Positions 5,923 to 32,980 of a DNA stretch of 54,413 nucleotides are shown here, piece after piece (positions within the stretch are counted from its first letter, which is position 1; each line of letters starts with the position of its first letter). Source of the stretch: a virus; IMG/VR virus record IMGVR_UViG_3300045454_000116, positions 1 to 54,413 of that record. The stretch is one strand, 5' to 3'. The notes below the pieces were generated by a model that made no database searches, was not told the DNA's origin, and worked only from the letters and a program-made list of their open reading frames with translations. The position numbers and the translations under genes are program-made.

Positions 5923-5936
5923 CCCCAGCATGTCAA
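5908..5936 (-). promoter_or_regulatory. Opposed promoter of the membrane protein/TIR operon
   Basis: Read on the minus strand: -35 TTGACA (5936-5931), a 17-base spacer, then -10 CATAGT (5913-5908). Transcription would begin near 5902, the A of the membrane-protein ATG. It occupies the same DNA as the rightward HsdM promoter, so the two should compete for polymerase. The Xre domain fused to HsdM is an obvious candidate regulator. Confidence 0.5.
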
Positions 5937-15424: not shown

Positions 15425-15932
15425 GACGGCGTTGGAACAGGCTCTGCCCTTCGCCTTGCGCGCGGTGCAGGTGCGTGCTGCCTCGGCAGTGGCCACTGGC
15501 CGGGTGACGGTGGCGGATCGCGAGGACCTCGAGCAGGAAGCACTCCTGGGGCTCTGGATGGCCCTGCGGCAGTATGACGCATCGCGCGCCAGCCTGCGGA
15601 CTTTCCTCGAGCGTGTGGCGGACAAGCGCTTCGCTTCTCTGCTGCGGCGACGCCGGAGTCCCCTCCTGATTGAACCTCTCGACGGTCATCGGTTCGCGAC
15701 CGCCGACGGAATTCCAGCGGTCCAGTTCCAGGTCGATTTCGAGCGCGTCCTCGCGCCGCTCGGCGATTCCGACCGCGCGCTGGCGCTCTTGCTCGTCGAC
15801 CACGGCCCTACCGAGATCAGCCGGATGCTTGGCATCGCCCGGTCCACCGTCTACGCCCGCATTGCACGGCTCCGCCGGGCGTTCGTCGATGCCGGCTACG
15901 GCGCCGAGGTTTCAACGGGAGGCTCGCGGTGA
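15417..15932 (+). CDS. Phage-encoded sigma-70 family (ECF-like) sigma factor
   Basis: 171 residues, the size of an ECF sigma factor. Region 2 is visible in DREDLEQEALLGLWMALRQY and SLRTFLERVADKRFASLLRR. Region 4 is visible in SDRALALLLVDHGPTEISRM and LGIARSTVYARIARLRRAF, a convincing HTH of the sigma-4 type. It should bind host RNA polymerase core and redirect it, perhaps to early or late phage promoters; the target promoters are not identifiable here. It sits between small early genes and a ParB-like gene with overlaps at both ends (GTGA at its 3' end). An alternative is a sigma-like DNA-binding regulator that does not replace sigma. Confidence 0.8.
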   Translation: MHETALEQALPFALRAVQVRAASAVATGRVTVADREDLEQEALLGLWMALRQYDASRASLRTFLERVADKRFASLLRRRRSPLLIEPLDGHRFATADGIPAVQFQVDFERVLAPLGDSDRALALLLVDHGPTEISRMLGIARSTVYARIARLRRAFVDAGYGAEVSTGGSR

Positions 15933-16876
15933 GGCATTCCCTGAAGATCGTGGACATCCCCTGCGACCAGATCCGCATCGGCGAACGCCACCGGAAGGAC
16001 ATGGGGGATCTGGAGGGTCTGGCCGCAAGCATCGCCCGCGAAGGGCTGTTGCAACCCGTCGGGATCACGGAAGACTTCCGGTTGGTCTTCGGCCATCGTC
16101 GGCTGCTGGCAGTCCAGGGCATCCTCAACTGGCCCACCATCCCGGCGCGAGTGGTCCGGGTTACCAGCCTGCTGGCCGCCGAACACGACGAGAACGAGTT
16201 TTCGAAGTCCTTTACAACGTCGGAACGTGTCGCGATCGGAAAAGCGCTGGAAGCGGAGATCGGCAACCGGCAGGGGCAGCGCATCGACCTCGAACTTCCG
16301 GAAGATTTTCCGGAAGTTCAACCCGGCACCGAGACCCGTGAACTGGTGGCCGAGAGGGCTGGATTCGGCAACCCGAGAACCTATCGGCAGGCCAAGAAGG
16401 TCACCGAGGAAGGAACGCCCGAACTGGTCGCGGCGATGGACGCGGGCGAGGTGTCGATCGACGCTGCCGCCATCATCGCCCAGGAGCCACCTGAAGCCCA
16501 GCGCGAGATCGTCCAGATGCCCGCCGCCGTGCGCCGCCAGATCGTACGCCAACTGCGCGAGGCCACCGAACTCCCTTCCACCACCGAGGCGCGGCGCATC
16601 GCGCGCGAGACGGGCATGCTCGTGGCCGACCGTACGGGCCGGTACCGCTCGGGCCTCTCGGACGAGGAACGTAAGGCGCTCAAGGAAGATCTTGACTCGA
16701 TCTGGGCAGTGACGCGCGCCGTCCTGGCTCTGGCCGATACACAACTCGATCCGGTCGAACTGGCATCGCGGCTCGAATACTGGCACTGCCCAGGCATCCG
16801 GGCCAAATCGCCGGCCGCCCTGGACTGGCTTCACCGCTTTGAGGAGGCAATTCGTGAAAAGACCCAGCTTTCATGA
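15929..16876 (+). CDS. ParB/Spo0J-like nuclease-fold protein
   Basis: 315 residues beginning with a ParB N-terminal domain: IPCDQIRIGERHRKDMGDLE, GLAASIAREGLLQPVGI and the GHRRLLA motif (FGHRRLLAVQGI) that binds nucleotide in ParB. The middle has an HTH-like region (TRELVAERAGFGNPRTYRQA), and the C-terminal half is helical and charged. Phage proteins like this may partition, regulate or nick DNA. Start is a GTG overlapping the sigma-factor stop. Oddity: residues 122-130 (ELPEDFPEV) are encoded by a perfect inverted repeat that also occurs between genes elsewhere, so a repeat has entered or arisen within this gene. Confidence 0.85.
   Translation: MRHSLKIVDIPCDQIRIGERHRKDMGDLEGLAASIAREGLLQPVGITEDFRLVFGHRRLLAVQGILNWPTIPARVVRVTSLLAAEHDENEFSKSFTTSERVAIGKALEAEIGNRQGQRIDLELPEDFPEVQPGTETRELVAERAGFGNPRTYRQAKKVTEEGTPELVAAMDAGEVSIDAAAIIAQEPPEAQREIVQMPAAVRRQIVRQLREATELPSTTEARRIARETGMLVADRTGRYRSGLSDEERKALKEDLDSIWAVTRAVLALADTQLDPVELASRLEYWHCPGIRAKSPAALDWLHRFEEAIREKTQLS
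16292..16319. repeat. TTCCGGAA-type inverted repeat inside the ParB-like gene
   Basis: Perfect 12-bp arms GAACTTCCGGAA and its complement around a GATT loop. The central 22 bases (16295-16316) recur exactly, in reverse complement, at 43509-43530. In frame it encodes LPEDFPE. Confidence 0.85.
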
Positions 16877-17366
16877 TTCGGAACTTTCGCGCCGGATCGA
16901 CGAGGTGATCCTGGCGCACCTGGAGACGGGCGAGCCCACGGCTGACGAGGTCAGCGCAGAGGTGCTTGCGCGGTACGGAGATCTGGTCGACGAGTACGGC
17001 CGCGAGCTGGCAGTGGCACAGGTCAGATCCATCGTCAGCGACCGCATGAAGAAGACGCTGGCGACCAAGAAGGGACATGCGCTGCAACTGCGGCTGGACA
17101 TGCGCTTCGGAGGTCTGGAGCCCGAGTCCGCGCTTACGTTCCGCGATGACAGCGGAGCCATCCGCTACGTGGCCACGGCGCGGGCGACCGAGGAACATCA
17201 CCGGCGCTACATGGCGCTGCTGCGGGAGCAGATTGAGGCCGACACGGCGCGGCTGAAGGTGGCCGAGTGGTTCTACGCCTGGCTCGAACCGGTCTTCGCC
17301 TCGCATCCGGGCATCACCACGGCCGAGGCGATCGCACGGCTCGCCCCGGAAGGCCAGGCGGTGTAG
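16854..17366 (+). CDS. Hypothetical early phage protein
   Basis: 170 residues, mostly helical and charged, with no recognisable family. The start is a GTG at 16854 six bases after GAGGAGG, inside the 3' end of the ParB-like gene; the TTG at 16839 further upstream would place the Shine-Dalgarno inside the protein. The N-terminal half (SRRIDEVILAHLETGEPTAD) looks like an HTH-type fold and the C-terminal half is helical (ERHRRYMALL-like). A DNA-related role in the early operon is plausible from context only. Confidence 0.65.
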   Translation: MKRPSFHDSELSRRIDEVILAHLETGEPTADEVSAEVLARYGDLVDEYGRELAVAQVRSIVSDRMKKTLATKKGHALQLRLDMRFGGLEPESALTFRDDSGAIRYVATARATEEHHRRYMALLREQIEADTARLKVAEWFYAWLEPVFASHPGITTAEAIARLAPEGQAV

Positions 17367-17461
17367 GGAGAGGCAGTCAGGGGCCTGCCGCAGGCCGGCC
17401 CGAATGGGATCGACACGATCAGAACAAAGCCATTGAAACAGAGGCAGGAGAAGCCAACCGT

Positions 17462-19612
17462 ATGACGCACGACGCATCCCCCATGGTGACCACCTACTCC
17501 ATGTGGAACCAGTTCCGGAACTGCCGGAAGGCGGCCGAACTTCGCTATCTCCAGCATCTGGTGCCGCTCGAACGGGACCGCAACCTGCACTTCGGCTCGC
17601 TGATTCACGAGTGCCTGGAACTCTGGCACGGCCAGCGCGACCTGGCGCGGATGCTTGATCTCATCGACCGCCGCTGCGCGGCCCGCGCGCAGGACGAGGA
17701 TCAGAAACGCGACTGGCACCTAGCCACCGCGATGATGCGGGCCTATGCGGAGCGTTACGCCGAAGAAGAGTTCGAAGTGGTTGCCCTGGAGCACGTCTTC
17801 GAAGGGCCGATTGTGAACCCGGCCACGGGCGCCTCCTCGCGCAGCTTCCGCCTGGCGGGCAAGGTCGATGGGATCGTTCGCATCGACGGCGAGCATTTCA
17901 TTCTCGAACATAAGTGCGTTGCAGGTGACAGCCGCATTTACGATTACGCATCGGCCGAGCTCCTAACGGTTCGCGACATGGCGCGGCGCCAAGTAGAGCC
18001 CGTAGTCCTCGGGATCGACGACCAGGGACGGCTCAGGCATGCGCAGGCAGGCGTTCCACAACCCGAAAAAGTGCGAGATGTCTTCCGAATCGTTCTCAAG
18101 TCCGGCCGAAGCCTCACCGTCTCGGATAACCACCCGGTCCTCACTCATAAGGGCTGGGTGGCCGCGGGGGCACTGAAGAAGGGCGACTGGGCAGCGGTTC
18201 CCCAGGCGTCACAGACTTCACACACGCAGAGCCCGTTTTCCGACGATGAGGTAAAGCTGGCCGGGTACATGTTGGCGGATGGCACTCTGTCGACTCTGGC
18301 GTTCACCAAATCAGACGGGCCTGTGCTCGCTGACTTCCTGGCGGCGGTAAGTCGTCTGGGCATTCGGTTCCACATACAGGGGCGAGAAGACCGCACTCCA
18401 CAGGTGAGATTGTCGCAGGCGCCCGAAAGCCCGGCGCGTCTCCTGATGGAGAGATTAGGCCTCTATGAGGAATGCGCCGAGGAGAAGCACCTTCCGGGTG
18501 TACTCCACTCGATTACGGACCACCAAGTCGGACTTCTGCTCGGCGCACTCTGGAGTACCGACGGTTGCGTGGACGTGTATGAGGAAAAGCGGCCGGATTG
18601 CGCCCGCTCTCAGGAGAAGATTCGGATTGCCTACGCTTCTCGTTCGCATGCCCTCTGTTCAGGAGTCCAGCAGCTTCTCTTGCGGCTCGGCATCAATTCA
18701 TCCGTCACCCGTTCCACGGTTGCGTACCGGCATGAACGGCGACCTACCTTCGTCACGAGAGTGATCGGCCGGCACTCAAAACGCCGATTCCTCGATCTCG
18801 CGATCGCTGGCGCGATTCCCATCCTGAAGTACCCCGAGGTGATCCGGCGGGCGCGGGCGTTGGTGAAGCCCGGAGAAGACCCTCGCATGGCGCCGTCTGA
18901 GCTGCCGGCATGGCTTCAACATGCAGAGGTGTTCTGGGACCCCGTTGAGGTCGTGATCGTCTCTGGGAGGCAGTTGATGTACAACCTGACCGTTCCAGAG
19001 ATCCACAGTTTTGTTGTGGACGACGTAATCACCCACAATACCGCGGCCCAGGTTGACGGCGATTACCTGGAGAAGCTCTGGACCGACTTTCAGATCACGC
19101 TCTACTCGCACTACGTCGAGCAGACGATGGGCATTCCCATCACTGGGATTCTCTACAACGTCCTCGTCAAGGCACGGCTCCAGCAGTCCAGAGGTGAGAC
19201 CGAGGAAGAGTTCGAAGCCCGCCGCGCGGAGCTGCTTGCCAAGTCGAAGACGGGCCGTACGGCCGCGCGACGGCGCGAGCCGGAGTCCGACGAAGATTTC
19301 CAGCGGCGGTTGGCCGAGAAGTACGCGGATCCGGCGATGTTCCACCGCGAGCGGCTGTATCTGTCGCGCGACCGCTTCGACGTGCTGCGCGCCGAGCTGT
19401 GGGAGCTCACGCAGGCCTTCCTCGACGCGCGCCGCCGCGGGGTCTTCTACCAGAACACTTCGTTCTGCTTCAACTACCAGCGGCCCTGTCCCTACTTCGC
19501 CCTGTGCCGGTCCAACGGCAATCCCAACGTGATCGAGAACTTCTACCAGCGCGCCGAGCCCAACGAGGAACTGCGCGTTCTCGCGGCCGGCTCGTCCGAA
19601 CCCGCTTTCTGA
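17462..19612 (+). CDS. PD-(D/E)XK exonuclease (Cas4/RecB-like) interrupted by an intein
   Basis: The precursor is 716 residues; after removal of a 375-residue intein the nuclease is 341 residues. The host protein opens with TTYSMWNQFRNCRKAAELRY, the N-terminal motif of PDDEXK_1/Cas4-like nucleases. The catalytic residues are Asp136 (KVDGIV) and Glu149/Lys151 (ILEHK). The C-terminus has CFNYQRPCPYFALC, probable iron-sulfur ligands together with Cys in the N-terminal RNCRK motif. The intein begins directly after Lys151, so the enzyme should be inactive until splicing. The nuclease probably resects DNA ends for the Sak4-like recombinase encoded next. Start ATG 17462, with AGGAG eleven bases upstream; ATG 17483 is also possible. 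Confidence 0.92.
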   Translation: MTHDASPMVTTYSMWNQFRNCRKAAELRYLQHLVPLERDRNLHFGSLIHECLELWHGQRDLARMLDLIDRRCAARAQDEDQKRDWHLATAMMRAYAERYAEEEFEVVALEHVFEGPIVNPATGASSRSFRLAGKVDGIVRIDGEHFILEHKCVAGDSRIYDYASAELLTVRDMARRQVEPVVLGIDDQGRLRHAQAGVPQPEKVRDVFRIVLKSGRSLTVSDNHPVLTHKGWVAAGALKKGDWAAVPQASQTSHTQSPFSDDEVKLAGYMLADGTLSTLAFTKSDGPVLADFLAAVSRLGIRFHIQGREDRTPQVRLSQAPESPARLLMERLGLYEECAEEKHLPGVLHSITDHQVGLLLGALWSTDGCVDVYEEKRPDCARSQEKIRIAYASRSHALCSGVQQLLLRLGINSSVTRSTVAYRHERRPTFVTRVIGRHSKRRFLDLAIAGAIPILKYPEVIRRARALVKPGEDPRMAPSELPAWLQHAEVFWDPVEVVIVSGRQLMYNLTVPEIHSFVVDDVITHNTAAQVDGDYLEKLWTDFQITLYSHYVEQTMGIPITGILYNVLVKARLQQSRGETEEEFEARRAELLAKSKTGRTAARRREPESDEDFQRRLAEKYADPAMFHRERLYLSRDRFDVLRAELWELTQAFLDARRRGVFYQNTSFCFNYQRPCPYFALCRSNGNPNVIENFYQRAEPNEELRVLAAGSSEPAF
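17915..19039 (+). other. Intein 1 with LAGLIDADG endonuclease (in the Cas4-like nuclease)
   Basis: 375 residues from Cys1 (CVAGDSRIYDY) to the terminal His-Asn, with Thr as +1 residue: a class 1 intein. Block B is LTVSDNHPVLTHKGW and the C-terminal blocks are MYNLTVPEIHSFVVDDVITHN with the penultimate His present. Two LAGLIDADG helices are seen: LAGYMLADGTLS and LLGALWSTDGCVD. Both acidic residues are present, so the homing endonuclease may be active. It is inserted immediately after the active-site Lys of EHK. Third-codon GC is visibly lower than in the host gene, suggesting later acquisition. Confidence 0.93.
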
Positions 19613-19629
19613 AACCCAAGGAGACTCTG

Positions 19630-21432
19630 ATGCCCATTCTTCCCACGACGAAAACCCCACCCAAGCCGAGCCTGTCGGATCTGACCGTGCTGTGTTACGG
19701 GCAAACCAAGATCGGCAAGTGTCTCGGCGGCAACTCTCTGCTGGCCAACCCGCTCAATGGCCGCCTGATGAGGATGGAATCGCTCGTCCGGAATCAATCC
19801 GGGCCGGTGCTGAGCATGAGGGAGGCGGGCCAGTTGAGACCGCTCACGCCCTCGGCCTTTGTCGAAAACGAGCCCGCTCAACTGTACTTGTTGAAAACCC
19901 AAACCGGCCGTTGGATCGAGGCCACCGCGAACCACCCCTTCTTGACCCGGGAAGGTTGGAAGCCGCTGTCGGAGTTGAACCTGAGCGACCGGGTGGCCGT
20001 CGTAGCCGAATATCCGCCGCTGGCGTGTCATGGCGATACCGACGATGAACTGGTCAAGATCATGGCGTATCTGATCGCCGACGGCAGTCTCGCCGGCAAG
20101 GGCGCCATCTTCACCAAGAACGATCCAGCCGTGCGGATGGACTTCGAGGCGGCTGTCGAAGCCAAGGGCGATGAGTGCGTGGAATTCGTCAACCAGAAGG
20201 GGGTTGTCCAGGTACGCGTCCGCGGCAAGCGCGGCCACCGCAACAACGTCATCGGTCACTTGCGGCAGACGGGGCTGCAAGGGCTGCGGTCCCGGGAAAA
20301 GTCCATTCCCGACTTCGTCTTCGGCCTGAAGCGAAGCAAGCAGAAGTTGTTCCTGAACCGGCTGTTCACCTGCGACGGCTCGGTGGAGGCGTCGGGCCGC
20401 ATCAGCTTCAGTTCGACCTCGGTGCGCATGGTTGAACAGGTCCAGCACCTGCTGGCCCGCTACGGGATCGTCTCCCTGATCCGGGACCGGTTTTTGAACG
20501 GCAGCCTCTACGGCGCCGAGCTTTGCATCGCCGCCAAGGACGACGTGCTCCGTTTCATCGACCAGATCGGTTTTTACGGAGAGAAAGCCGTCAAGGCGGA
20601 GGCAGTGCGGCAGAACCTTTACCAAGTGAGGTCCGCCGAAACGCAGCTCGACAGGATCGGTTCCATCCTGTTCGACCGCGTGACCTCGGTCCGCCCCTCG
20701 CGGGTAGCGCCCGTGTTCGACCTCACGGTTGAGGAGACGCACAATTTCGTGGCCAACGACTTTGTCGTCCACAACTCGACCTTCTGCTCTCAAGCCGACG
20801 GCGCCGTCTTTCTCGCCACCGAGCCGGGCCTGAACGCCCTCGAGGTCTTCCAGGTGCCCATCCTCTCCTGGGAGGATCTGCTGGCCGCCTGCGCCGAAAT
20901 CAGCGAGGGCAAGCACCCGTTCAAGACCATCATCGTCGACACCGTCGACAACGCCCATAAGTTCTGCACCGAGTACATCCTGCGGAAGTACAAGGTCGAG
21001 CACGAATCCGACCTGGCCTACGGCAAGGGCTACTCGATCGTCAACAACGAGTTCCAGCGCGTGCTGACGAAACTCGCTTTCCTGCCCTACGGGCTCTACC
21101 TGATCTCGCACGCCAAGGAGATCGAGGTCGAAACGCGCACCGGCAAGTACACGCGCATCGTGCCGACGCTGCCCGAGAAGGCGCGCAAGATCGTGCTCGG
21201 TATGGTCGACATGGTCCTTTACTGCGACCTCGATGTGTCGGCCGGCGCGGAAGGCGAGCAGATCATCCGGCGCGTGATCCGTACCAAGCCGAGCCTCTAC
21301 TACGAAGCCGGCGACCGCACCGGTCGGCTGCCCGAGACGATCGACCTCGACTACCGCAAGTTCCTCGAAGCCTTCCAGGCGGCGGCGGGTGCGCCGCCGA
21401 AACCGCAGGCGGGCCCCAAGCAGGCCAAGTAA
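19630..21432 (+). CDS. Sak4-like RecA-fold ATPase interrupted by an intein
   Basis: The precursor is 600 residues and the mature protein 248 after loss of a 352-residue intein. The joined exteins give YGQTKIGKSTFCSQ, a Walker A motif, preceded by LSDLTVLC and followed by ATEPGLNALEV and TIIVDTVDNAHKFC (Walker B). This matches phage AAA_24/Sak4-like single-strand annealing ATPases, which work with an SSB-like partner in phage recombination. The intein lies between the Lys and Ser of GKS, so unspliced protein cannot bind ATP. Start: ATG 19630 with AAGGAG six bases upstream. It follows the nuclease gene and precedes a DUF669 gene, a typical phage recombination cassette. Confidence 0.9.
   Translation: MPILPTTKTPPKPSLSDLTVLCYGQTKIGKCLGGNSLLANPLNGRLMRMESLVRNQSGPVLSMREAGQLRPLTPSAFVENEPAQLYLLKTQTGRWIEATANHPFLTREGWKPLSELNLSDRVAVVAEYPPLACHGDTDDELVKIMAYLIADGSLAGKGAIFTKNDPAVRMDFEAAVEAKGDECVEFVNQKGVVQVRVRGKRGHRNNVIGHLRQTGLQGLRSREKSIPDFVFGLKRSKQKLFLNRLFTCDGSVEASGRISFSSTSVRMVEQVQHLLARYGIVSLIRDRFLNGSLYGAELCIAAKDDVLRFIDQIGFYGEKAVKAEAVRQNLYQVRSAETQLDRIGSILFDRVTSVRPSRVAPVFDLTVEETHNFVANDFVVHNSTFCSQADGAVFLATEPGLNALEVFQVPILSWEDLLAACAEISEGKHPFKTIIVDTVDNAHKFCTEYILRKYKVEHESDLAYGKGYSIVNNEFQRVLTKLAFLPYGLYLISHAKEIEVETRTGKYTRIVPTLPEKARKIVLGMVDMVLYCDLDVSAGAEGEQIIRRVIRTKPSLYYEAGDRTGRLPETIDLDYRKFLEAFQAAAGAPPKPQAGPKQAK
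19720..20775 (+). other. Intein 2 with LAGLIDADG endonuclease (in the Sak4-like ATPase)
   Basis: 352 residues from Cys1 (CLGGNSLL) to terminal His-Asn, with Ser as +1. Block B is GRWIEATANHPFLTREGW; the C-terminal blocks are VFDLTVEETHNFVANDFVVHN. LAGLIDADG-type helices: IMAYLIADGSLA and FLNRLFTCDGSVE. Class 1. Unlike inteins 1 and 3, its codon use is close to that of its host gene, which suggests a longer residence. Confidence 0.93.
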
Positions 21433-22349: not shown

Positions 22350-24523
22350 AGGATCAGCGCGAGTCGATCCGCGGCATCGTCGACGCGGTCTTTTACTCGG
22401 GCCCCACCTTCAGCGCGGGCCGCCTGGTGACGCCCGATGGTGGCGAGGTGAAGTTCGCGGGCAAAGTCTATGTCCGTGAGAACGACGCCGCGCGGCTCGA
22501 AGGCCGCTGGGTAACGCATCCCAAATACGGGCGCCAGTTCGAGGCCGAGTTCCTGGGCCACGACCTGGAACTCGATCCCGAGGGGCTTGCCCGCTTCCTC
22601 GCCAATCATCCAGACATCAAGGGCATCGGCCCGGCCAAGGCGAGGTTGATCGCGGATCGTTTCGGCAGTCATTTCGAGCAAGCCCTTTGCAGCGAGCCGG
22701 AATCGGTGGCGGCTGTGGCCAAGGCGCCGGTCGAGACCATCGGCGAACTGCGCCGGATCTGGATCGCGAATCGCGATTTCAACCATGCCATGTCGCACCT
22801 GGCCGCCTACGGCCTGACCCATCACCAGGTCACCACGCTCGTCGGGAGGTTCGGCAGCCAGGTGGTGGCGATTCTTGAGCACGATCCCTATGTGCTGATG
22901 CGGGAGATTCCGGGCTTCGGCTTCAAGCGCGTGGACAAGATCGCCCGCAAGATGGGCACGCCCAAGGATCTGCCCTCGCGCATTCGCGCAGGGATTCACT
23001 ACTCGGTGCTCAGTGCGCTCGATGACGGCGACTGCTGGGTCGAGTACGAGGATCTGCTCGATCGCGCCAACACGCTGCTGGTGATGGACACGCTCGACAG
23101 CCGGGAGGTAATCGAGCGGCATCTGGAAGCGCTGGTCGCTGAGGGCGTGCTGGTCTTGCAGACATTCGAGCGCCTCATCGTGGCCGATCCCGAGATCCAC
23201 CGCATGGAAACGGAGCTGGCGGCGGTCTTCAAAGAAGCATGCCGGCCAAGCCCTCATGCAGTGAGCGATCTCGACGGGCTGCTCAACGCCGAAGGCGGCG
23301 AGCTGAATCCCGACCAACGGAAAGCAGTCGAGAACGCGCTCACATTTTCCATTTCGCTGATGACCGGCGGCGCGGGCAGCGGCAAGACCTACGCCGTGTC
23401 GACGATCGTGAGCATCGCCGAACGGCTGGAACGGAAAGTCTTGCTGGCGGCGCCTACGGGCAAGGCGGCCAAGCGGCTCGAAGAGGTCGTGGGCCATGAG
23501 GCGAGCACCATCCACCGGCTGCTCGGCTTCAACGGTCACAGCTACGCGAGGGATGCCATGAATCCGATCGAGGCCGACATTCTGGCGATCGACGAGGTCA
23601 GCATGGTGGACGTACCGCTCGCTTGGCGGCTGTTTCAGGCGGTCGACCTGACCAAGACCGCCGTGGTCCTGGTCGGCGACCACAATCAGTTGCCGCCGGT
23701 GGGGCCGGGGAATCTGCTCCGGGACCTCGTGAAGTCGCGAGCGATTCCGACCACCGTTCTCACGCGGATCATCCGCCAGGCGGGTGTGCTCAAGGAGAAC
23801 TCGACCGCCATCCTCGCGGGCGAGGTGCGGCCCACCACGGACGTGCAGACCGGTGGCCGCCGGCCCTGGTACGTCATCGACCGCTTCAGCGACCGCGAGG
23901 ACGTGCGGCGGATGTTGCTCTTGCTCTTCGAGGAAGTTCTGGCCGAGCGTCTCGGCTACGATCTGCTGCGCGATGTACAGGTGCTGACACCTACGCACAA
24001 GGGCCCGCTTGGCACGGCCGAGTTGAACCTTGCGCTCCAGCATCTCTTGCAGAAGAAGCTGCGCGGCTTCGACGTGCCGGATGTCCTTTCCGGACACCGG
24101 CCCATCTTCTACGCCGGCGACAAGGTCATCCAGACGCGCAACGATTACGAACTGGGCGTCATGAACGGCGCCGTGGGCTACGTCGTCGAAGCCACCGCGA
24201 AGGGCGCGCTTACGGTCGAGTTCGACGGCGCTGTTGTCGAACTCGAGCCTGGATCAGACGCTGCCAGCCGCCTTCAGCTTGCCTATGCCTGCTCGGTCCA
24301 CAAGGTTCAGGGCTCGGAATTTCCGTGCGCCGTCGTCATCGCTCACAAGTCGCACTCCTTCATGCACCACCGCAATCTTCTCTACACCGCGGTGACGCGC
24401 GCCCGGGAGTCCGTGATTCTGCTCGGCGATCGCTGGGGCATTGAGAACTGCGCGGCCAAGCGGCAGGTGGACCGTCGCAACACGTTTCTCTCCTTCCTGC
24501 TCGAACCGGAGGCGCGCGCATGA
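22346..24523 (+). CDS. RecD2-type ATP-dependent DNA helicase
   Basis: Superfamily 1B 5'-3' helicase of about 725 residues, the usual size of RecD2. The N-terminal OB-like region (GRLVTPDGGEVKFAGKVYV) is followed by helix-hairpin-helix repeats (IKGIGPAKARLIADRF; IPGFGFKRVDKIARKMG). The motor has Walker A TGGAGSGKT (Lys347), Walker B LAIDEVSMVD, GDHNQLPPVGPGN, and C-terminal motifs YACSVHKVQGSEF and LYTAVTRARESV. RecD2 genes are common in phage replication modules and would unwind DNA alongside the primase encoded next. Start ATG 22346 overlaps the ERCC4 gene stop. Confidence 0.94.
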   Translation: MKDQRESIRGIVDAVFYSGPTFSAGRLVTPDGGEVKFAGKVYVRENDAARLEGRWVTHPKYGRQFEAEFLGHDLELDPEGLARFLANHPDIKGIGPAKARLIADRFGSHFEQALCSEPESVAAVAKAPVETIGELRRIWIANRDFNHAMSHLAAYGLTHHQVTTLVGRFGSQVVAILEHDPYVLMREIPGFGFKRVDKIARKMGTPKDLPSRIRAGIHYSVLSALDDGDCWVEYEDLLDRANTLLVMDTLDSREVIERHLEALVAEGVLVLQTFERLIVADPEIHRMETELAAVFKEACRPSPHAVSDLDGLLNAEGGELNPDQRKAVENALTFSISLMTGGAGSGKTYAVSTIVSIAERLERKVLLAAPTGKAAKRLEEVVGHEASTIHRLLGFNGHSYARDAMNPIEADILAIDEVSMVDVPLAWRLFQAVDLTKTAVVLVGDHNQLPPVGPGNLLRDLVKSRAIPTTVLTRIIRQAGVLKENSTAILAGEVRPTTDVQTGGRRPWYVIDRFSDREDVRRMLLLLFEEVLAERLGYDLLRDVQVLTPTHKGPLGTAELNLALQHLLQKKLRGFDVPDVLSGHRPIFYAGDKVIQTRNDYELGVMNGAVGYVVEATAKGALTVEFDGAVVELEPGSDAASRLQLAYACSVHKVQGSEFPCAVVIAHKSHSFMHHRNLLYTAVTRARESVILLGDRWGIENCAAKRQVDRRNTFLSFLLEPEARA

Positions 24524-27255
24524 GCACCTCGATCGATGTCCATGCCTACTACCGCCAAATCACCGAGTTGGACATTGGCGGGATCGCCCGCGAGCTGCTC
24601 GGCCGCCGCATCGTCGAAGAGTCGCCGCGCACGCTCTTTTGCGATTGCCCGAATCACAAGAGCCAGTCGCACCGCTCGCTCCACGTCATGCTCGACAAGC
24701 AGGGCTGGTACTGCTTTGGCTGCGGCGTGGGCGGGGACGTGCTGCAACTGGTCGAATTCGTGCGCTTCGGCGTGGTGACGCGCGGCCAGTCAGGGCCGAT
24801 GCCAGAGTCGCACCGCCTGGCACGCGACTTCCTGGCCGCCCGCTCGGGCTTGCCGCCGCTGGCTCAGCTTGCCTCGGGTTCGCCGGAAGAAGCCGAAGCC
24901 GAGCACCGCCTCACGCTGCGCGTGCGCGAAGCGCTGACCGCGTTGGCCGAAATCTACCACCAGCGGCTCGTGAGCAATGCGGAAGTCTACTCGTGGTTCC
25001 GCGCCCAGTACGGCATCCGCGAGGAGACGATCGAGCGGCTGAAGATCGGCTACGCCGAGGACGGCTCGCCCACTGCCGCGCGCTTGCTCATGGAAGGGCC
25101 CGCCGGGTTCACGCCGCGCGAGTTGACCGCGACTTCCGCCTTCCGGCCGACGGCTCAGGACGGCATCGTGCCATTCTTCGACCGACGCATTGTGTTCCCG
25201 TACTGGAGCCGCGGCCACGTCGTCTTCCTGATCGGCCGCCGCACGCCGTGGACGCCCGACCACGAATGGGAGAAGTCGAAATACAAGAAGCTGGCCGTTC
25301 GCAACGACCGCAACCACAGCCATGTCGCGGCCTGTATTCGCAACGACGTGCTCTACAACGAGGACGTCCTGCTTACGGGCCCCGAGCGCATCGTCATCAC
25401 CGAAGGCGTGACCGATTGCATTTCGCTTATCGAGCATGGCTTTGCGGCCGTCTCGCCCGTCACCGTCCAGATCCGCGAGGCGGATTGGGACCGGCTGATC
25501 TCGAAACTGGCGGGCGTGAAGACCGTCTACATCTGCCAGGACAACGAAGTTTCCGAAGCCGGGCTCCACGGCGCGATGAAGACGGCCCGACGGCTGGCCG
25601 CGCACGGGATTACCACGCGCGTGGCGGTCCTGCCGCTCGGCGAGAAGCAGATCGCCGCGCGCGCCAGGCTCGCCGAGTTGCCAGAAGAGAGCCCGGAGGC
25701 TGACACCCTCCGCGCCGATGCCAAGATCGACGTCAACGAATACTTCGCCTCGGGCAAGACCGCCGCCGACTTCGAAGCGATCCTCGCGGCCGCGCAAACG
25801 CCGCTCGAGATGGCGATCGCGAAGTTGCAGCCAGACGCTCAGGACCTGGCGAAGATTCTCGATCCAATCTTGGCAGAGATCCATCAACTCGATCCCATCG
25901 AGCAGCCGCGCTACCTGAAGCTCATTCAGGACAAATGCGGCAAAGCCCGGCTGCCCATCTCGGCGTTGCGCCAACAGATGAAGGTCGTCCGGATCGACGG
26001 AGCACGTGGTGGCAAGGGAAGGCGTGGCGGCGCGCAAGCCTTGCGGGCCGTCAATGCCGGCGCGGAGTCGTGGCGCAACCATCTTTTGCTGAACCTCAAC
26101 GGCACGGTCAAGCCCGTGCTGGCCAACGCCATCACCGCGTTGCGTGGCGCACAGGAATGGTCGGGCGCGCTGGCCTACAACGAGTTCTCGAACTGCACCG
26201 TGCTGCGCAAGCCCGCTCCGTGGATGAAGTCCGGCGCGGATGTGCATGAGGAATGGACCCCGAACCACGACGTGCTGGCGACCGAGTGGCTCCATCATCA
26301 GGGCATCTTCGTCCCGGTCGACGTGACGGGCCAGGCGATCGAAGCCGTCGCCCGGGAGCGCGCGTTCCATCCCGTGCGGACCTACCTCAAGGAACTCACC
26401 TGGGACGGCACGCACAGAATCGAATCGTGGCTTGTCGACTACCTCGGCGTCGATCCCTCGCCCTATGCGGCGGCGGTCGGCTCGCGCTGGCTGATCTCGG
26501 CCGTGGCGCGCGTATTCGAGCCGGGATCGAAAGCCGACTGCTGCCTGATCCTCGAAGGCGAGCAGGGTATCCGCAAATCGACCGCCCTGCGCATCCTGGC
26601 CGAGCCGTGGTTCACCGATGAGATCGCCGACCTGGGTTCCAAAGACGCCGCACTGCAGACCCGGGGCGTGTGGGTGATCGAGATCGCCGAACTGGATTCG
26701 ATGTCGCGCTCCGAGATCGGCCGGATCAAAGCGTTCATGAGCCGGGCCATCGACCGCTTCCGGCCGCCGTACGGCAAGCGCCTCATTACCTCTCCGCGCC
26801 AATGCGTCTTCGCCGGCAGCGTGAATCATGGCACATACCTGCGGGATGAAACCGGCGGGCGCCGCTTCTGGCCGGTCGAGTGCAAGGCCGCGGTGATCGA
26901 CACGGACGGTCTGGCCATCATCCGGGACCAACTGTGGGCCGAGGCGACCTATCTTTACTTCGAAGGCAAGCCGTGGTGGCTCGACTCGGTGGAGCTCAAC
27001 CGCGAGGCGGCCGAGGAACAGGCCGAACGCTACGAGGGCGATCCATGGGATGACCTGATTCTCAAGTGGGTCGAGGGCCGGGAGTCGGTGTCGATCCCGG
27101 AGATCCTCGCGCAGTGCATCGAGAAGAAGACCGACATGTGGACGCAGATGGACCGCAACCGGGTGGCGAGGTGCCTGAAGGCGAACGGGTGGAAGCAGTA
27201 CAAGGCCCGAGAAGGCAACCGCCGCGAATGGCGGTTTCGGCGCTTAGGTCCATGA
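24520..27255 (+). CDS. Phage primase-helicase: CHC2/Toprim primase fused to a VirE/VapE-type ATPase
   Basis: 911 residues. A CHC2 zinc finger lies at residues 41-68 (Cys41, Cys43, His46, Cys65, Cys68; WYCFGCGVGGDVLQLV). The Toprim domain has RIVITEGVTDCISLIE with its acidic cluster. The C-terminal VirE/VapE-type ATPase has a modified Walker A GEQGIRKST (Lys686), Walker B-like GVWVIEIAELDSMSR and CVFAGSVNHGTYLRDETGGR. This is the arrangement of combined primase-helicases of temperate phages, which prime and open DNA at the phage origin. Start ATG overlaps the recD2-like stop. The 3' end runs into the GGTCCA iteron array that I propose as an origin. Confidence 0.93.
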   Translation: MSTSIDVHAYYRQITELDIGGIARELLGRRIVEESPRTLFCDCPNHKSQSHRSLHVMLDKQGWYCFGCGVGGDVLQLVEFVRFGVVTRGQSGPMPESHRLARDFLAARSGLPPLAQLASGSPEEAEAEHRLTLRVREALTALAEIYHQRLVSNAEVYSWFRAQYGIREETIERLKIGYAEDGSPTAARLLMEGPAGFTPRELTATSAFRPTAQDGIVPFFDRRIVFPYWSRGHVVFLIGRRTPWTPDHEWEKSKYKKLAVRNDRNHSHVAACIRNDVLYNEDVLLTGPERIVITEGVTDCISLIEHGFAAVSPVTVQIREADWDRLISKLAGVKTVYICQDNEVSEAGLHGAMKTARRLAAHGITTRVAVLPLGEKQIAARARLAELPEESPEADTLRADAKIDVNEYFASGKTAADFEAILAAAQTPLEMAIAKLQPDAQDLAKILDPILAEIHQLDPIEQPRYLKLIQDKCGKARLPISALRQQMKVVRIDGARGGKGRRGGAQALRAVNAGAESWRNHLLLNLNGTVKPVLANAITALRGAQEWSGALAYNEFSNCTVLRKPAPWMKSGADVHEEWTPNHDVLATEWLHHQGIFVPVDVTGQAIEAVARERAFHPVRTYLKELTWDGTHRIESWLVDYLGVDPSPYAAAVGSRWLISAVARVFEPGSKADCCLILEGEQGIRKSTALRILAEPWFTDEIADLGSKDAALQTRGVWVIEIAELDSMSRSEIGRIKAFMSRAIDRFRPPYGKRLITSPRQCVFAGSVNHGTYLRDETGGRRFWPVECKAAVIDTDGLAIIRDQLWAEATYLYFEGKPWWLDSVELNREAAEEQAERYEGDPWDDLILKWVEGRESVSIPEILAQCIEKKTDMWTQMDRNRVARCLKANGWKQYKAREGNRREWRFRRLGP

Positions 27256-27590
27256 GGTCCACGTGGTCCATGTGTAGGTCCACGTCTGTGCGAGGCCGTA
27301 ATCAACTGATTCAAAACGGCTTTCTCAGTCAGGTCCACGTGGTCCACGTCTGTTGCTGTTAATTACTTGAGAAAAATGCGCACACAATGCCAGGGGACAG
27401 AAATGTGAATGCATTTTGCGTATGGAAAAGAGAGAAACCCCATGGACCCGGTGGACCCCGTGGACCTAAACCGCCAAGTCCTGCGAGTTCAATGACTTCT
27501 GGCGGCCATGTTTCCGGCCGAGACGTGGACCTGGTCCACGTCTTGCCGTGGACCTCCCTGCTCGTCTCGACCGCGCTGGACACTTGGACC
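27247..27590. repeat. GGTCCA iteron array; candidate phage replication origin
   Basis: Thirteen GGTCCA/TGGACC hexamers in 344 bases. Left arm in direct orientation: 27247, 27256, 27265, 27277, 27332, 27341. Right arm mainly inverted: TGGACC at 27443, 27452, 27461, 27526, 27549, 27585, plus one GGTCCA at 27533. Spacing is often exactly 9 bases (CACGT or CATG between boxes). The interval 27300-27435 between the arms is markedly AT-richer than its surroundings. Placement right after the primase-helicase gene fits a replication origin with initiator boxes; a transcriptional control region is the main alternative. Confidence 0.6.
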
Positions 27591-28163
27591 ACCGGACAGC
27601 CGGAAATCTTCGCCCGCGACGTCCAGATCAACGATACGGCCTACCGGCGGCTGGATCCGGAATACTACGCCTGGCTCCGCTCGCGGATGAACCTGGCGAA
27701 GCTCGCCGCCGGCGCGGGGCGGCTCAGCCCGGACGCGTTCGACGAGCTGCGCGAGAAGTTCAATGCCGTGCACGAGTGGGCCGTCGCCCATTTCGGCGAG
27801 GAAAGACTGCGCGAGGCCGTTCGCAATCTCGACGCCCGCAACTACACCCCTCCCGTCGCGGAACCGGACAAGCCGGTTCGCCCCGCGCCTGCCGCCGAAC
27901 ATATCGCGTTTGACCCCGTGGCCATGGTGGATGCGATCCGCGATCAGGCTCTCTCGCTTGGCTGGACCGAGCAGAGCCTTTACGGGACCGGCGGCACAAC
28001 GCGTGCGCTGTTTGGAAAAGCGTGTGGGCTCGCGAACCTGCTCAAGGCCACCGACCAGATCGGCGAAGTCACGCGGCAATCCATCGAGATCATTCTTGCC
28101 AGCGGCGTGCGCCAGCACTTCTACAATCCGGACGTCGAACAGCCCTGGATCCGGCGTGTCTGA
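27492..28163 (+). CDS. Hypothetical phage protein after the iteron array
   Basis: 223 residues with this start; an ATG at 27387 would add 35 residues encoded by repeat sequence and has no Shine-Dalgarno. The coherent part begins about IFARDVQINDTAYRRLDPEY, continues as helices (RSRMNLAKLAAGAGRLSPDA; FNAVHEWAVAHFGEERLREA) and ends in an alpha-helical domain (TRALFGKACGLANLLKATDQ). No known family or catalytic motif. The N-terminal 35 residues are again repeat-encoded and probably unstructured. Located between the candidate origin and small genes. Confidence 0.6.
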   Translation: MTSGGHVSGRDVDLVHVLPWTSLLVSTALDTWTTGQPEIFARDVQINDTAYRRLDPEYYAWLRSRMNLAKLAAGAGRLSPDAFDELREKFNAVHEWAVAHFGEERLREAVRNLDARNYTPPVAEPDKPVRPAPAAEHIAFDPVAMVDAIRDQALSLGWTEQSLYGTGGTTRALFGKACGLANLLKATDQIGEVTRQSIEIILASGVRQHFYNPDVEQPWIRRV

Positions 28164-28348
28164 AAAAAGTTCGCCGCGGCAGGACAACCCGGACTGGCGG
28201 CGGGTATATAGTACACGGAAGCCCAGCACGCCAGGCAGACCACGGGGCGGACGTCGCGTGGGGCAGTCCAGAGATCAGTTCGATCGAGCGCCGGGACGCT
28301 CGCCAATCTCCTTCCCGCAGATTCCACACGAGAGGTCTGTCCGCGACG

Positions 28349-29024: not shown

Positions 29025-29384
29025 ATGGCTGATTCTCCCTCCCTCCAGCCGCGATCGCTTGGAAGGATCGCGGTCTCCACGCCAGGAACACCCGTCCGGG
29101 TGACCTCCGACACCTCGATCCGGGCCCACCGGATCCGCTTCGCCGCCGTCATCGGCGAGACGGGGCGGGTGTTCCTCGGCCTGCAAGGGATGAACAAAGC
29201 CACGGGCGCCGGCGTGGTGAAGGAGTTCTGGCCCACGGGCGCGGGCGGCGGCGTGGCCGACGAGTTGGTGCTCGAGTCCGCTGCTGGCGACCTGCGGCCG
29301 TCGGACTACTACCTCGACGCCAACACGGCGGGCGAGGGGTTGATCGTCGCCTACTGGACCTGGGTGCCGAGCTATGCCAGTTGA
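29025..29384 (+). CDS. Hypothetical phage protein
   Basis: 119 residues. After a polar N-terminus it looks beta-rich (GRIAVSTPGTPVRVTSDTSI; RIRFAAVIGETGRVFLGLQG; GAGGGVADELVLESAAGDLR; GLIVAYWTWVPSY), as expected for a small structural or decoration-type protein. No family recognised. The last 11 bases overlap the start of the ParB-methyltransferase gene, so the two are expressed together. Confidence 0.55.
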   Translation: MADSPSLQPRSLGRIAVSTPGTPVRVTSDTSIRAHRIRFAAVIGETGRVFLGLQGMNKATGAGVVKEFWPTGAGGGVADELVLESAAGDLRPSDYYLDANTAGEGLIVAYWTWVPSYAS

Positions 29385-30834
29385 CCGCGTGACGCCGGCG
29401 ATGGCGAAGCGCATCGAGTTGTGGCCCCTCGCGCGGCTTGCGCCCTACCAGCGCAACCCCAGGACGCATTCCGAGGAGCAGGTGACGCAGATCGCGGCTT
29501 CGATTGCGGAGTTCGGCTTCTGTAACCCGATTCTGGTCGACTCGCGCGACGGCATCGTGGCCGGGCACGGGCGGTTGCTGGCGGCGAAGAAACTGGGGCT
29601 CGCTCAAGTGCCGGTCATCGTCCTGGATCATTTGGACGAAAACCAGCGGCGGGCCTACCTCCTCGCCGACAACCGGCTGTCGGAGCTGGCGGGATGGGAC
29701 CCCGAACTGCTGGCGCTCGAACTGAAGCAACTCGCGGATGCCGGATTCGACGCGACGCTGGCCGGGTTCGATCAGAAAGAGATCGACGACTTCCTGGCGT
29801 CGCTCGAACGGGACGCGGAGCCCGAGTCCAACGACGCCGAGGACTCCGTGCCGGAAGTGCCTGCGGAGGCGGTCACCCGGCCCGGCGACCTGTGGCTGAT
29901 CGGGCCGCATCGCCTCATCTGCGGCGACTGCCGCGATCGCAGCGTCATCGCCGAGCTGTTCGAGGGCCGGAAGGCGAACGTGGTCATCACCTCGCCGCCT
30001 TACGCCACGCAGCGGCAGTACGATCCTTCGAGCGGCTTCGAACCCGTGCCGCCCGAGAAGTATGTCGCCTGGTTCCGGGACGTGGCCGCAGCGATCGAAT
30101 CGGTGCTCGCGCCTGACGGCTCCTACTTCCTCAACATCAAAGCCCACGCCGACGAAGGCGAGCGGCACACCTACGTGATGGACCTGGTGCTCGCGCACAA
30201 GCGGCAGTGGGGCTGGCGCTTTGTGGACGAATTCTGCTGGCGCAAGACCGACGACGGCGTGCCGGGCGGCTGGTCGAACCGCTTCAAGAACGCCTGGGAG
30301 CCGATTTATCACTTCTCGCGCGAGCGCAAGATCAAGTTCCGGCCGCGCGAGGTAGCGCACTGGTCCGATGACTGCTTCGATTACTCGCCCGACAATCCGA
30401 AGTCCGCGTCGGGCAGCGGGCTGCTCGGCACGGGGCCGCGCGGCGCGGCGGCCGACAAGGGCAAGAACCAGGCCGCCTGGCAGACCACGCGACGCAACGC
30501 CAACGACCTCGAGGGCCGGCACGGAGGCCTCGCGCGGCCCTCAAACGTGATCGAAGCCAAGACCGAGTCCTCGCAGGGGAACCACTCGGCGCCGTTTCCG
30601 CGCGCGATCCCGGAGTTCTTCATCAAAGCCTTCTCCGATGCCGGCGATGTGATCTTCGATCCGTTCGCGGGCAGCGGCACCACACTCGTCGCCGCCGGGC
30701 TGCTCGAGCGATCAGGCTTCGGCGTCGAGATCAGCCCGGCTTACTGCGACGTGATCCTGCGCCGCATGCAGGAAACCTTGAAGCTCACGCCCGTCCATGC
30801 GGTGACGGGCGAACCATTTCCATCCCACACGTGA
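29374..30834 (+). CDS. ParB-domain/DNA methyltransferase fusion, copy 1
   Basis: 486 residues. Residues about 10-150 are a ParB N-terminal domain (RNPRTHSEEQVTQIAASIAE, GFCNPILV and GHGRLLAAKKLG). The rest is a beta-class N4-cytosine/N6-adenine methyltransferase with catalytic TSPPYATQRQY and AdoMet motif DPFAGSGTT near the C-terminus (order catalytic-then-AdoMet marks the beta group). Phage enzymes of this type modify phage DNA to avoid restriction, and the ParB part may aid DNA binding. A second gene of the same layout lies 0.9 kb downstream; their N-terminal domains are close relatives but the catalytic motifs differ (TSPPY versus TDPPY). Confidence 0.93.
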   Translation: MPVDRVTPAMAKRIELWPLARLAPYQRNPRTHSEEQVTQIAASIAEFGFCNPILVDSRDGIVAGHGRLLAAKKLGLAQVPVIVLDHLDENQRRAYLLADNRLSELAGWDPELLALELKQLADAGFDATLAGFDQKEIDDFLASLERDAEPESNDAEDSVPEVPAEAVTRPGDLWLIGPHRLICGDCRDRSVIAELFEGRKANVVITSPPYATQRQYDPSSGFEPVPPEKYVAWFRDVAAAIESVLAPDGSYFLNIKAHADEGERHTYVMDLVLAHKRQWGWRFVDEFCWRKTDDGVPGGWSNRFKNAWEPIYHFSRERKIKFRPREVAHWSDDCFDYSPDNPKSASGSGLLGTGPRGAAADKGKNQAAWQTTRRNANDLEGRHGGLARPSNVIEAKTESSQGNHSAPFPRAIPEFFIKAFSDAGDVIFDPFAGSGTTLVAAGLLERSGFGVEISPAYCDVILRRMQETLKLTPVHAVTGEPFPSHT

Positions 30835-30848
30835 AGGAGTGAATCACC

Positions 30849-31286
30849 ATGCCGGAAGTAGCCACGTCGAACCAGGCCGAACGCGAGTTCGAGACCGGGA
30901 CGGACGAATCGTTCAAGAACACGAGCGCTGCCGCCGGGGCCGCGCACAGCGAGAACCAGCGCGTGACGTTCGCCAACATCAAGCGCACCTACGACGTCTA
31001 CCAGGACCTGGACATCCAGGCCGCGCGGCAGGCTCTCACCGAGCAGACGCGGCTGAACCAGATCGCCTCGCAGGCGCTCCAGAACGCCGTCGAGACGGCC
31101 AACCTGGTATCGAAGCAGGCCGTGCGCCATGGCGACATCGCCATCGACGGCCAGTGGAATCCCATCCAGGCCGGTGCGGGCGACACGCTGACGGCGCGGG
31201 CGGTAGCGATCGACGACGTCTCGCTCAAGGCCATCGGCGCGGTGGTCGCGGCCGCCGTGGCCGACGCGCTGGCCAAGGGCAAGTAG
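30849..31286 (+). CDS. Hypothetical phage protein
   Basis: 145 residues with a strong Shine-Dalgarno (GAAGGAGTG) before ATG 30849. Acidic N-terminus, then a long helical region (TFANIKRTYDVYQDLDIQAA; TEQTRLNQIASQALQNAVET) and an alanine-rich C-terminus (AIGAVVAAAVADALAKGK). Likely a helical oligomer; role unknown. Followed by a good intrinsic terminator, so it ends a transcription unit that began upstream of the first methyltransferase. Confidence 0.65.
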   Translation: MPEVATSNQAEREFETGTDESFKNTSAAAGAAHSENQRVTFANIKRTYDVYQDLDIQAARQALTEQTRLNQIASQALQNAVETANLVSKQAVRHGDIAIDGQWNPIQAGAGDTLTARAVAIDDVSLKAIGAVVAAAVADALAKGK

Positions 31287-31311
31287 TCTTTCTCCTGAAG
31301 GGCGCAAGGAA

Positions 31312-31352
31312 GGGGCGGCTCGGCATCCCCGTGTCGGGCCGCCCCGCTTTTT
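31312..31352 (+). terminator. Rho-independent terminator
   Basis: Eight-bp GC stem GGGGCGGC (31312-31319) / GCCGCCCC (31338-31345) followed by GC and five T residues. It closes the operon ending at 31286 and directly precedes the tRNA gene. Confidence 0.75.
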
Positions 31353-31369
31353 CACGGCTCGAATTCCGA

Positions 31370-31444
31370 TGCGGAGTGGCGCAGTGGCAGCGCGGCGGAC
31401 TCATAATCCGCAGGCCGCGGGTTCGATTCCCGCCTCCGCGACCA
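31370..31444 (+). tRNA. tRNA with CAU anticodon (tRNA-Met, or tRNA-Ile2)
   Basis: A 75-base cloverleaf ending in an encoded CCA. The acceptor stem TGCGGAG pairs with CTCCGCG (first pair is a U-G wobble), the anticodon stem is GCGGA/TCCGC with loop CTCATAA (anticodon at 31402-31404), and the T arm is GCGGG-TTCGATT-CCCGC. The 1-72 pair argues against an initiator tRNA. Elongator Met is the default reading; a lysidine-modified tRNA-Ile reading AUA is the alternative. Within the prophage between a terminator and a small membrane-protein gene, so it is phage-borne. Confidence 0.92.
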
Positions 31445-31454
31445 GGCATTGCCC

Positions 31455-31724
31455 ATGATCCGCGAACTGCGGCTGTGGTGGCGGCTGCGGCTGCTCGTCA
31501 AACAATTCCAGGAGCTGACGAAAATGAAGTTCTCTTTGAATGTCGCCATTCAGATGCTGGCGCTGGTGGCGCAGGGCTTGAATGCTTCAATCGACCTGCT
31601 GCCCGGGCGCGGCAAGTTCTGGGCCATGGTCTCGTTGTCGGCGGTGCAGGGTCTCACGGCCGTGATCGCCCATTTCGCCAACCCCGACGGCACGCCGGCC
31701 GAGGCCCCCTATACCAAGAAGTGA
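31455..31724 (+). CDS. Small membrane protein, possibly holin-like
   Basis: 89 residues. A basic N-terminus (MIRELRLWWRLRLLVKQF) is followed by two hydrophobic stretches, NVAIQMLALVAQGLNASIDL and FWAMVSLSAVQGLTAVIAHF, and a short polar tail. Two short membrane helices and a small size are compatible with a holin or other phage membrane protein, but no holin family is recognised. It starts 10 bases after the tRNA and overlaps the next gene start (GTGA). Confidence 0.6.
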   Translation: MIRELRLWWRLRLLVKQFQELTKMKFSLNVAIQMLALVAQGLNASIDLLPGRGKFWAMVSLSAVQGLTAVIAHFANPDGTPAEAPYTKK

Positions 31725-32980
31725 AGCCGGACCTCCACATCGAGCGCTGGCCGCTGGAGCGGCTGATTCCCTACGCGAGGAATCCGCGCACGCACACCGA
31801 GGAGCAGGTAGCGCAGATCGCAGCGTCGATCGCCGAGTTCGGCTTCGTCAACCCCGTTCTCGTCGGAGCCGATGGCGTCATCATCGCCGGCCACGCGCGC
31901 GTGATGGCCGCGCGGAAGCTCGGGATGACTGAAGCACCGGTGATCGTGCTCGATCACCTGAGCCAGGCGCAGCGCCGCGCGCTGGTCATTGCCGACAACA
32001 GGCTTGCCCAAGACGCCAGGTGGGATGAGGAGATGCTGCGAGTGGAACTCGAGGCGCTCCGCGAGGATGAATTCAACCTCGACTTGCTGGGCTTCGCCGA
32101 TGACGAGATCGAGGCTTTGCTTGCGGAGCCGGACGACTCTATCGCCGGCAACACCGAGGACGATGCGGTCCCGGAGACGCCCGAGACGGCGGTTACGGTC
32201 CCTGGCGATGTTTGGCTGCTTGGCGATCATCGGCTGCTGTGCGGCGACTCGACGCAGATGGAAGCCATCCAGAAGGTGCTGGCGGGCGGGCTGGCCGACA
32301 TGACCTGGACAGACCCTCCCTACGGGGTTAACTACGGCGCCACGATGAAGGACAAGCTCCGAAAAAAGCATCGCCGGATCGCCAACGATAACCTCGGCCC
32401 CGCGTTTGAACCCTTCCTGCGCGACGCCTGCACGAACATCCTCGCCGTCACCAAGGGCGCGGTCTACATCTGCATGTCCTCGTCGGAGCTGCACACGCTG
32501 CACAAGGCGTTCACTGAAGCGGGCGGCCACTGGTCCACGTTCCTCATCTGGGCCAAGAACACATTCACCATGGGCCGATCCGACTACCAGCGGCAGTACG
32601 AGCCGATCCTCTACGGATGGAAGGAGGGCACGGACCACTACTGGTGCGGCGCCCGCGACCAGGGCGACGTGTGGTTCGTGAAGAAGCCCGTCGCCAACGA
32701 CCTGCACCCGACAATGAAACCGGTCGAGCTGGTCGAGCGCGCCATCCGCAATTCGAGCAAGAGCCGGGACACGGTGCTCGATCCGTTCGCTGGGGCGGGC
32801 TCGACACTGATCGCTTGCGAAAAGACCGGCCGCCAGGCGCGGCTGATGGAGATCGATCCACCGTATTGTGATGTCGTGATTTCTCGCTGGGAATCTCATA
32901 CCGGGAAGAAGGCGGTGCTCGAGTCGTCTGGGGAGCCCTTCGAAGTAGTCCGGGCGAATCGCAGTTCTGTGACTCAGTAA
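31721..32980 (+). CDS. ParB-domain/DNA methyltransferase fusion, copy 2
   Basis: 419 residues from a GTG overlapping the previous stop. N-terminal ParB domain (RNPRTHTEEQVAQIAASIAE, GFVNPVLV and GHARVMAARKLG) nearly parallels copy 1. The catalytic domain has TDPPYGVNYG, the central RSDYQRQYEPILYGW and HPTMKPVELVERAIRNSS, then AdoMet motif DPFAGAGST, so it is a beta-class adenine or N4-cytosine methyltransferase. Catalytic regions of the two copies differ enough to suggest different targets. Probably protects phage DNA; it could also protect against the element's own restriction enzyme, though HsdM already does that. Confidence 0.93.
   Translation: MKPDLHIERWPLERLIPYARNPRTHTEEQVAQIAASIAEFGFVNPVLVGADGVIIAGHARVMAARKLGMTEAPVIVLDHLSQAQRRALVIADNRLAQDARWDEEMLRVELEALREDEFNLDLLGFADDEIEALLAEPDDSIAGNTEDDAVPETPETAVTVPGDVWLLGDHRLLCGDSTQMEAIQKVLAGGLADMTWTDPPYGVNYGATMKDKLRKKHRRIANDNLGPAFEPFLRDACTNILAVTKGAVYICMSSSELHTLHKAFTEAGGHWSTFLIWAKNTFTMGRSDYQRQYEPILYGWKEGTDHYWCGARDQGDVWFVKKPVANDLHPTMKPVELVERAIRNSSKSRDTVLDPFAGAGSTLIACEKTGRQARLMEIDPPYCDVVISRWESHTGKKAVLESSGEPFEVVRANRSSVTQ

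Follow-up and report, generated by a model that had tools for sequence, protein, structure and literature searches.

Introduction

The origins of staphylococcal pathogenicity islands (SaPIs), reportedly the subject of work by Ubeda in 2007, contain two sets of iterons flanking an AT-rich stretch. In SaPI Rep and in Cch2 of SCCmec, the C-terminal domains bind iterons located directly downstream of the respective genes, as described in the Cch2 report (PMC7581432), from which the SaPI result is taken as cited there. In the PLE satellites, the RepA_N DNA-binding domain and the origin iterons covary and have been swapped several times, cognate RepA/origin pairs being required for replication (PMC8263062, PMC7145576), and an origin-directed phage nuclease provides a selective reason for the swapping (PMC8263062).

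Here we examine a locus of comparable organization in a virus record of 54.4 kb, described as a soil phage and taken as a whole as the window of analysis. Most of its relatives were found in genomes of Bryobacterales/Acidobacteria or among metagenomic viral contigs; a search of bacterial genomes was of little further help, with 9 matches among 396 genomes from the phylum and a single one among 47 from another order. The initial annotation had noticed an array of GGTCCA boxes after a primase-helicase gene and had read it as an origin or a large operator. Comparison with the relatives makes it highly likely that the array is the replication origin of the phage, loaded by its own self-loading primase-helicase via a C-terminal winged helix.

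Results

Layout of the array

The 344-bp stretch after the helicase gene contains 13 boxes where about 0.17 would be expected (Poisson ~2e-20), and the next richest stretch of this length in the window has 3, in line with the claim that the clustering is far beyond chance. The reported counts were recovered, with six direct boxes to the left of the core and, to its right, six inverted boxes and one further direct one (Table 1), except that the box at 27585 lies outside the array, which leaves 12 of the 13 boxes in the array proper. The TGGACC at 27585 encodes part of the downstream protein and is kept in the related loci L126, L129 and L190 while all other boxes have changed, and we therefore consider it a coding coincidence. 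Likewise, the direct box at 27533, said to break the pattern, is present, but together with the box at 27526 it forms a perfect palindrome, so that it represents one arm of a dyad rather than an irregularity; in L126, this palindrome is altered symmetrically to AGACGTGAACC-T-GGTTCACGTCT.

The array starts at the helicase stop codon, which the first box overlaps, and 49 bp separate the four boxes of the left outer arm from the left inner pair. The spacing of 9 bases, described as frequent, occurs five times. The core is indeed AT-richer, with 57% AT compared to 36% for the window, and only 0.03% of 96-bp windows are equally AT-rich; at its end, adjoining the right arm, there is a TATGG-A/G purine run. 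The boxes at 27256–27466 are outside the helicase gene and upstream of the start codon at 27492, but from 27526 onward the boxes probably overlap the 5′ coding part of the downstream gene, given the in-frame ATG at 27492. There was no Rfam match in 27000–28000 and no switch in GC skew at the array. In the cores of the window and its relatives, a TATAGGAA/TTCCTATA-like motif is found beside the right arm in about 30% of cases, and alternating purine-pyrimidine runs (ACACGCGCG) are present in many.

Table 1. Features of the helicase–array locus (window coordinates)
Feature	Position	Strand	Remark
Primase-helicase, 911 aa, proposed initiator	24520–27255	+	Pfam/PHROG; fold match to PriRep1 (7pds)
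C-terminal winged-helix domain, residues 838–911	27031–27252	+	AlphaFold2 models
Codons of residues 893–895 (Gln-Tyr-Lys)	27196–27204	+	wing strand b2; proposed specificity residues
GGTCCA boxes	27247, 27256, 27265, 27277, 27332, 27341, 27533	+	
TGGACC boxes	27443, 27452, 27461, 27526, 27549, 27585		
Left outer arm	27247–27282	+	four direct GGTCCA (27247, 27256, 27265, 27277)
Left inner pair	27332–27346	+	direct boxes 9 bp apart
AT-rich core, 96 bp	27347–27442		proposed unwinding region
Right inner arm	27443–27466	-	three inverted boxes 9 bp apart
Perfect two-box palindrome	27521–27543		AGACGTGGACC-T-GGTCCACGTCT (boxes 27526 and 27533)
Outer right inverted box	27549–27554	-	
TGGACC outside the array	27585–27590	-	coding coincidence
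Downstream gene, no known family	27492–28163	+	start codon 27387 or 27492

The primase-helicase and its winged helix

The protein encoded upstream of the array combines a CHC2 zinc ribbon, DnaG-N and TOPRIM domains, a VapE-like AAA+ helicase and a C-terminal winged helix. For the helicase part, the best match is PriRep1 with dsDNA (7pds), with E values of 3e-55 in hmmsearch and 2.8e-23 in Foldseek. AlphaFold2 models of the C-terminal domain (mean pLDDT 83 and 86) have the a1-b1-a2-a3-b2-wing-b3 topology of a winged helix, with a1 at residues 842–851, a2 at 859–866, a3 at 876–888, b2 at 891–898 and b3, after the wing, at 901–908. A sequence search with the isolated winged helix found no homologous chain, and its fold matches in the PDB are weak (none with E < 0.001), namely to winged-helix proteins, with BlaI/MecI at the top, and to 7pds. 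Positions 893 and 895 are alternate residues of the first wing strand and therefore face the same side.

The same plan with different boxes in relatives

The initial annotation had proposed comparison with the DNA that follows primase-helicase genes in related prophages. We called an array when a 7-mer occurred in at least 5 copies, above all shuffles, no more than 550 bp from the helicase stop codon. By this definition, 102 of 154 distinct loci have an array right after the stop codon; control windows inside the helicase gene contained 2–6 copies, mostly 3. A plus/core/minus arrangement is seen in 88 of the 102 arrays, with a median gap of 85 bp, and in 87 of these 88 the AT content of the core exceeds that of the locus. 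Boxes are most often spaced 9 or 8 bp apart. Relatives that match only residues 1 to ~580 lack the VapE C-terminus and are uninformative with respect to the array. A scan of viral contigs for three copies of GGTCCANNN, which gave at least 120 stretches, was dropped unsorted because the pattern also encodes Gly-Pro-X repeats, and the search was made from the helicase instead.

On the same two-armed plan, the sequence of the box differs from phage to phage. The classes include GGTCCAC, GGT[GT]CAC, [GT]GTTCCAGT (KGTTCCA), TGTCCCA, TGTCC[AT]ACC, TGTCACCA and GGTCCGGG, as well as TGTCCCAGT, TGTTCCCAGT, TGTACCCAGT, TGTCCCAC and TGTCCCAACC. In far relatives, the array is reduced to a minimal form of three direct plus three inverted boxes, e.g. 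CCGGACG in L431, and the plan is present with GGGGTGA boxes in the Marinobacter PS3 phage. It also extends to a Gram-positive host: Staphylococcus phage phiSP15-1 (L447) has a two-armed TGTTGCA array of 10 copies at ~3870–4225, right after the DNA primase. Repeats in the Pseudomonas U5, Streptococcus Javan100 and Coprococcus phages are either weaker or in a displaced position.

In about one-third of the relatives, the helicase gene is not directly followed by an array; many of these have one further downstream, and in some none was found within the sequence stretch examined. The displaced arrays, located 0.5–2.6 kb downstream behind other genes, mostly carry the box predicted from the helicase residues described below (L261, L264, L265, L272, L275, L276, L279, L318, L371, L375 and L390). 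The recognition rule does not hold for L274 (Q895) and L283 (R895), where the only arrays consist of GTTTCCA and are laid out differently; L300 and L314 deviate as well. The GTTTCCA repeats, 8–9 copies of which two abut, lie ~2.2 kb (L274) and ~2.5 kb (L283) after the helicase stop codon and may be a different element. In L230, a Bryobacteraceae genome, the array is cut off behind its first GGTCCA box, with unrelated DNA from position 1166 on; an insertion probably broke this origin.

Covariation of the box with residues 893 and 895

Box class sorts with the residues at 893 and 895: GTCACC occurs with R,Q (12/12), GTTCCA with R,N (11/11), GTCCWA with K,R (8/8), GTCCAC with Q/M,K (6/6), GTKCAC with R,Y (3/3) and TCCCA with R,R/K (49/50). 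On a tree of the helicase that omits the C-terminal 74 residues, the 94 rows require a minimum of 24 changes of box class, and thus the sorting does not reflect a single split. An independent-pairs sign test did not reach significance, there being too few supported pairs; because that test is underpowered, we used distance-matched pairs and permutation within clusters. When 345 columns were ranked in 493 close pairs matched for body distance, with gaps, such as those at residues 558–564, excluded, the top 14 columns linked to different-box pairs all fell within residues 876–911, led by 893 (+0.89), 887 and 895, followed by 892, 907 and 886. Permuting the tails within clusters of near relatives gave a mean concordance of 23.2 and a maximum of 36 in 20,000 shuffles, compared with the 47 of 48 observed.

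The closest group, in which the primases are ~90% identical or more, allows GGTCCA and GGTKCA phages to be compared over 911 residues; the only separating positions are I273L, 893–895, 899, 900 and the last two residues. Relatives fetched later, which are only partly independent because they are kin of the first set, again have GTCACC with Q895 (9/9) and CCCA-type boxes with R895. The strong covariation suggests that the C-terminal domain sets the specificity for the iterons, which favors the primase-helicase, one of the two initiators that had been put forward.

Linkage or recognition

Since the end of the helicase gene adjoins the array, joint inheritance has to be weighed. The array could be an origin as proposed and its association with residues 893/895 nevertheless be due to hitchhiking, the gene end and the array being exchanged together by recombination. 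Synonymous sites do bear such a trace: in codons 876–911, the excess difference in different-box pairs is 0.08–0.13, with none upstream, which attributes part of the association to inheritance of a cassette instead of selection at individual sites; judging from these differences, a cassette of a3, wing and origin gets exchanged. As an account of the association, however, hitchhiking is unlikely. The amino-acid excess at residues 890–902 is 0.30 compared with 0.09 for synonymous changes, i.e. about threefold; the strongest columns are 893, 887 and 895 rather than those closest to the array; and displaced arrays mostly follow the rule. Furthermore, the spacers of the window are 72–75% identical to those of L126/L129, whose boxes differ from its own at box position 4, but only 49–54% identical to those of L127, L128, L131 and L132, which have the same box.

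Other readings of the array

A large operator, the second function considered in the initial annotation, would serve a transcription regulator of the downstream genes, and replication would start elsewhere. Winged helices are common in repressors, BlaI/MecI being the top fold matches noted above, and the boxes overlap the start of the next gene; yet a scan of 26900–28200 for promoter- or terminator-like sites came back empty, it is the C-terminal domain of the helicase itself, not a separate regulator, with which the box covaries, and the plan of the array is kept when it is displaced behind other genes, which together make an operator improbable. Still less credible is a parS-like partition or incompatibility site bound by the ParB-like protein (15929–16876), the other initiator suggested: the window has such a gene and the boxes are repeated, but parS sites usually lie close to parB, which is paired with parA, the gene is ~10 kb away and the covarying partner is the adjacent helicase, leaving the ParB-like protein without support. 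Expansion of a coding or neutral 9-nt minisatellite can be dismissed, because even though a unit of 9 bp corresponds to three codons and one frame of the right arm reads Gly-Pro-X, the second arm is inverted, ~100 phages share a fixed layout despite their different boxes, and the boxes all change in concert against persisting spacers; as to the conserved coding repeat that had been named as a possible refutation, the arms moreover are outside coding sequence or span different frames, and the boxes change together without a matching change in the protein context.

Other features of the window

Inteins or homing-endonuclease inserts (LAGLIDADG_3) are present in three phage genes (17267–19612, 19399–21432 and 35908–38901), which encode an exonuclease, a Sak4-like annealing protein and the terminase large subunit; the inserts in 17267–19612 and 19399–21432 have an Intein_splicing domain. 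A type I restriction-modification set at 5831–12371, within the phage or at its edge, includes HsdM with an N-terminal HTH, HsdR and, as read from the translations, a specificity-like subunit and a small metalloprotease-like protein; a serine recombinase (3025–4554) is encoded nearby. The neighboring frames 29374–30834 and 30839–32980 each appear to encode a ParB-like N-terminal domain fused to a DNA methyltransferase, the former by Pfam and the latter by reading of the translation only. A tRNA-Met (CAT) gene at 31370–31444 lies inside the frame 30839–32980, which suggests that the true gene start is downstream of the tRNA.

Discussion

Judged by sequence comparison, a two-armed array at the 3′ end of the helicase gene is kept in layout and its box follows residues 893/895, and this conservation of position and plan, combined with the dependence on winged-helix residues, strongly supports the origin reading over that of an operator. 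At the proposed origin, the winged helix of each helicase subunit would bind one box, as the covariation suggests. The variable wing strand, which the covariation favors over the helix, would read the variable bases, and the conserved helix a3 would contribute to recognition of the conserved GT part of the box. By analogy with SaPI and Cch2, a helicase ring may be loaded onto each arm, the two facing head-to-head; melting of the intervening AT-rich core would follow, the rings would move apart, and the fused TOPRIM primase domain would prime both forks.

In evolution, the box and the wing residues would switch together, partly by exchange of a cassette comprising the last ~35 codons and the origin, and partly with retention of much of the spacer DNA, as in the window compared with L126. 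Tentatively, and with somewhat less than even confidence, we propose that a near one-to-one wing-strand code, in which R/K, N, Q and Y at residues 893/895 would correspond to C, T, A and K in the box, lets the initiator and about a dozen iterons switch specificity repeatedly and quickly, so that VapE-type phages would have private origins. The base-by-base reading of this code is ambiguous for GGTCCAC and GGTKCAC. Each phage would thereby possess an origin that the initiators of relatives or satellites could not use. If origins are private in this sense, the pressure probably comes from relatives or satellites; with a box of its own, a phage would escape having its origin used, titrated, cut or otherwise attacked by such elements, although to name a driver is speculation.

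If the proposal is true, sequence alone is enough to locate the origin and the initiator in a widespread phage group, and two amino acids suffice to predict the origin box. The phages would then offer a large natural set of matched protein–DNA specificity switches in a replication initiator, which would open to test how one protein and its dozen or so dispersed sites change specificity jointly, and what drives the change.

The type of origin is already known, namely a SaPI-like iteron origin with a self-loading helicase; the surprising part is the scale of the box switching and the apparently simple wing-strand code. In the open-licence literature, a limited search found no description of these phage origins, nor of the breadth of box switching or of a wing-strand code. 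As in the SaPI Rep/PriRep systems (7pds PriRep1, 7ola SaPI5), the iterons are directly 3′ of the gene for a homologous AAA+ helicase whose C-terminal domain is the proposed reader. SCCmec Cch2 is likewise an initiator helicase that binds direct repeats downstream of its operon via the C-terminal domain, but it has only three 5-nt repeats (AAGTG), is of the D5 type and works with a separate primase (PMC7581432). The PLE satellites share the covariation of DNA-binding domain and origin, whereas their protein belongs to the RepA_N family and is not a helicase, the alleles are few, and the origin is elsewhere in the element. In geminiviruses (PMC12548392), the iterons of close relatives often differ while the layout is kept, as here, and the Rep iteron-related domain belongs to an unrelated protein, a rolling-circle Rep of plant viruses. 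Compared to SaPI, the present system is found in phages with relatives mostly in Acidobacteria, has a DnaG/TOPRIM-type primase fused to the helicase in one protein, and switches its box many times among near relatives.
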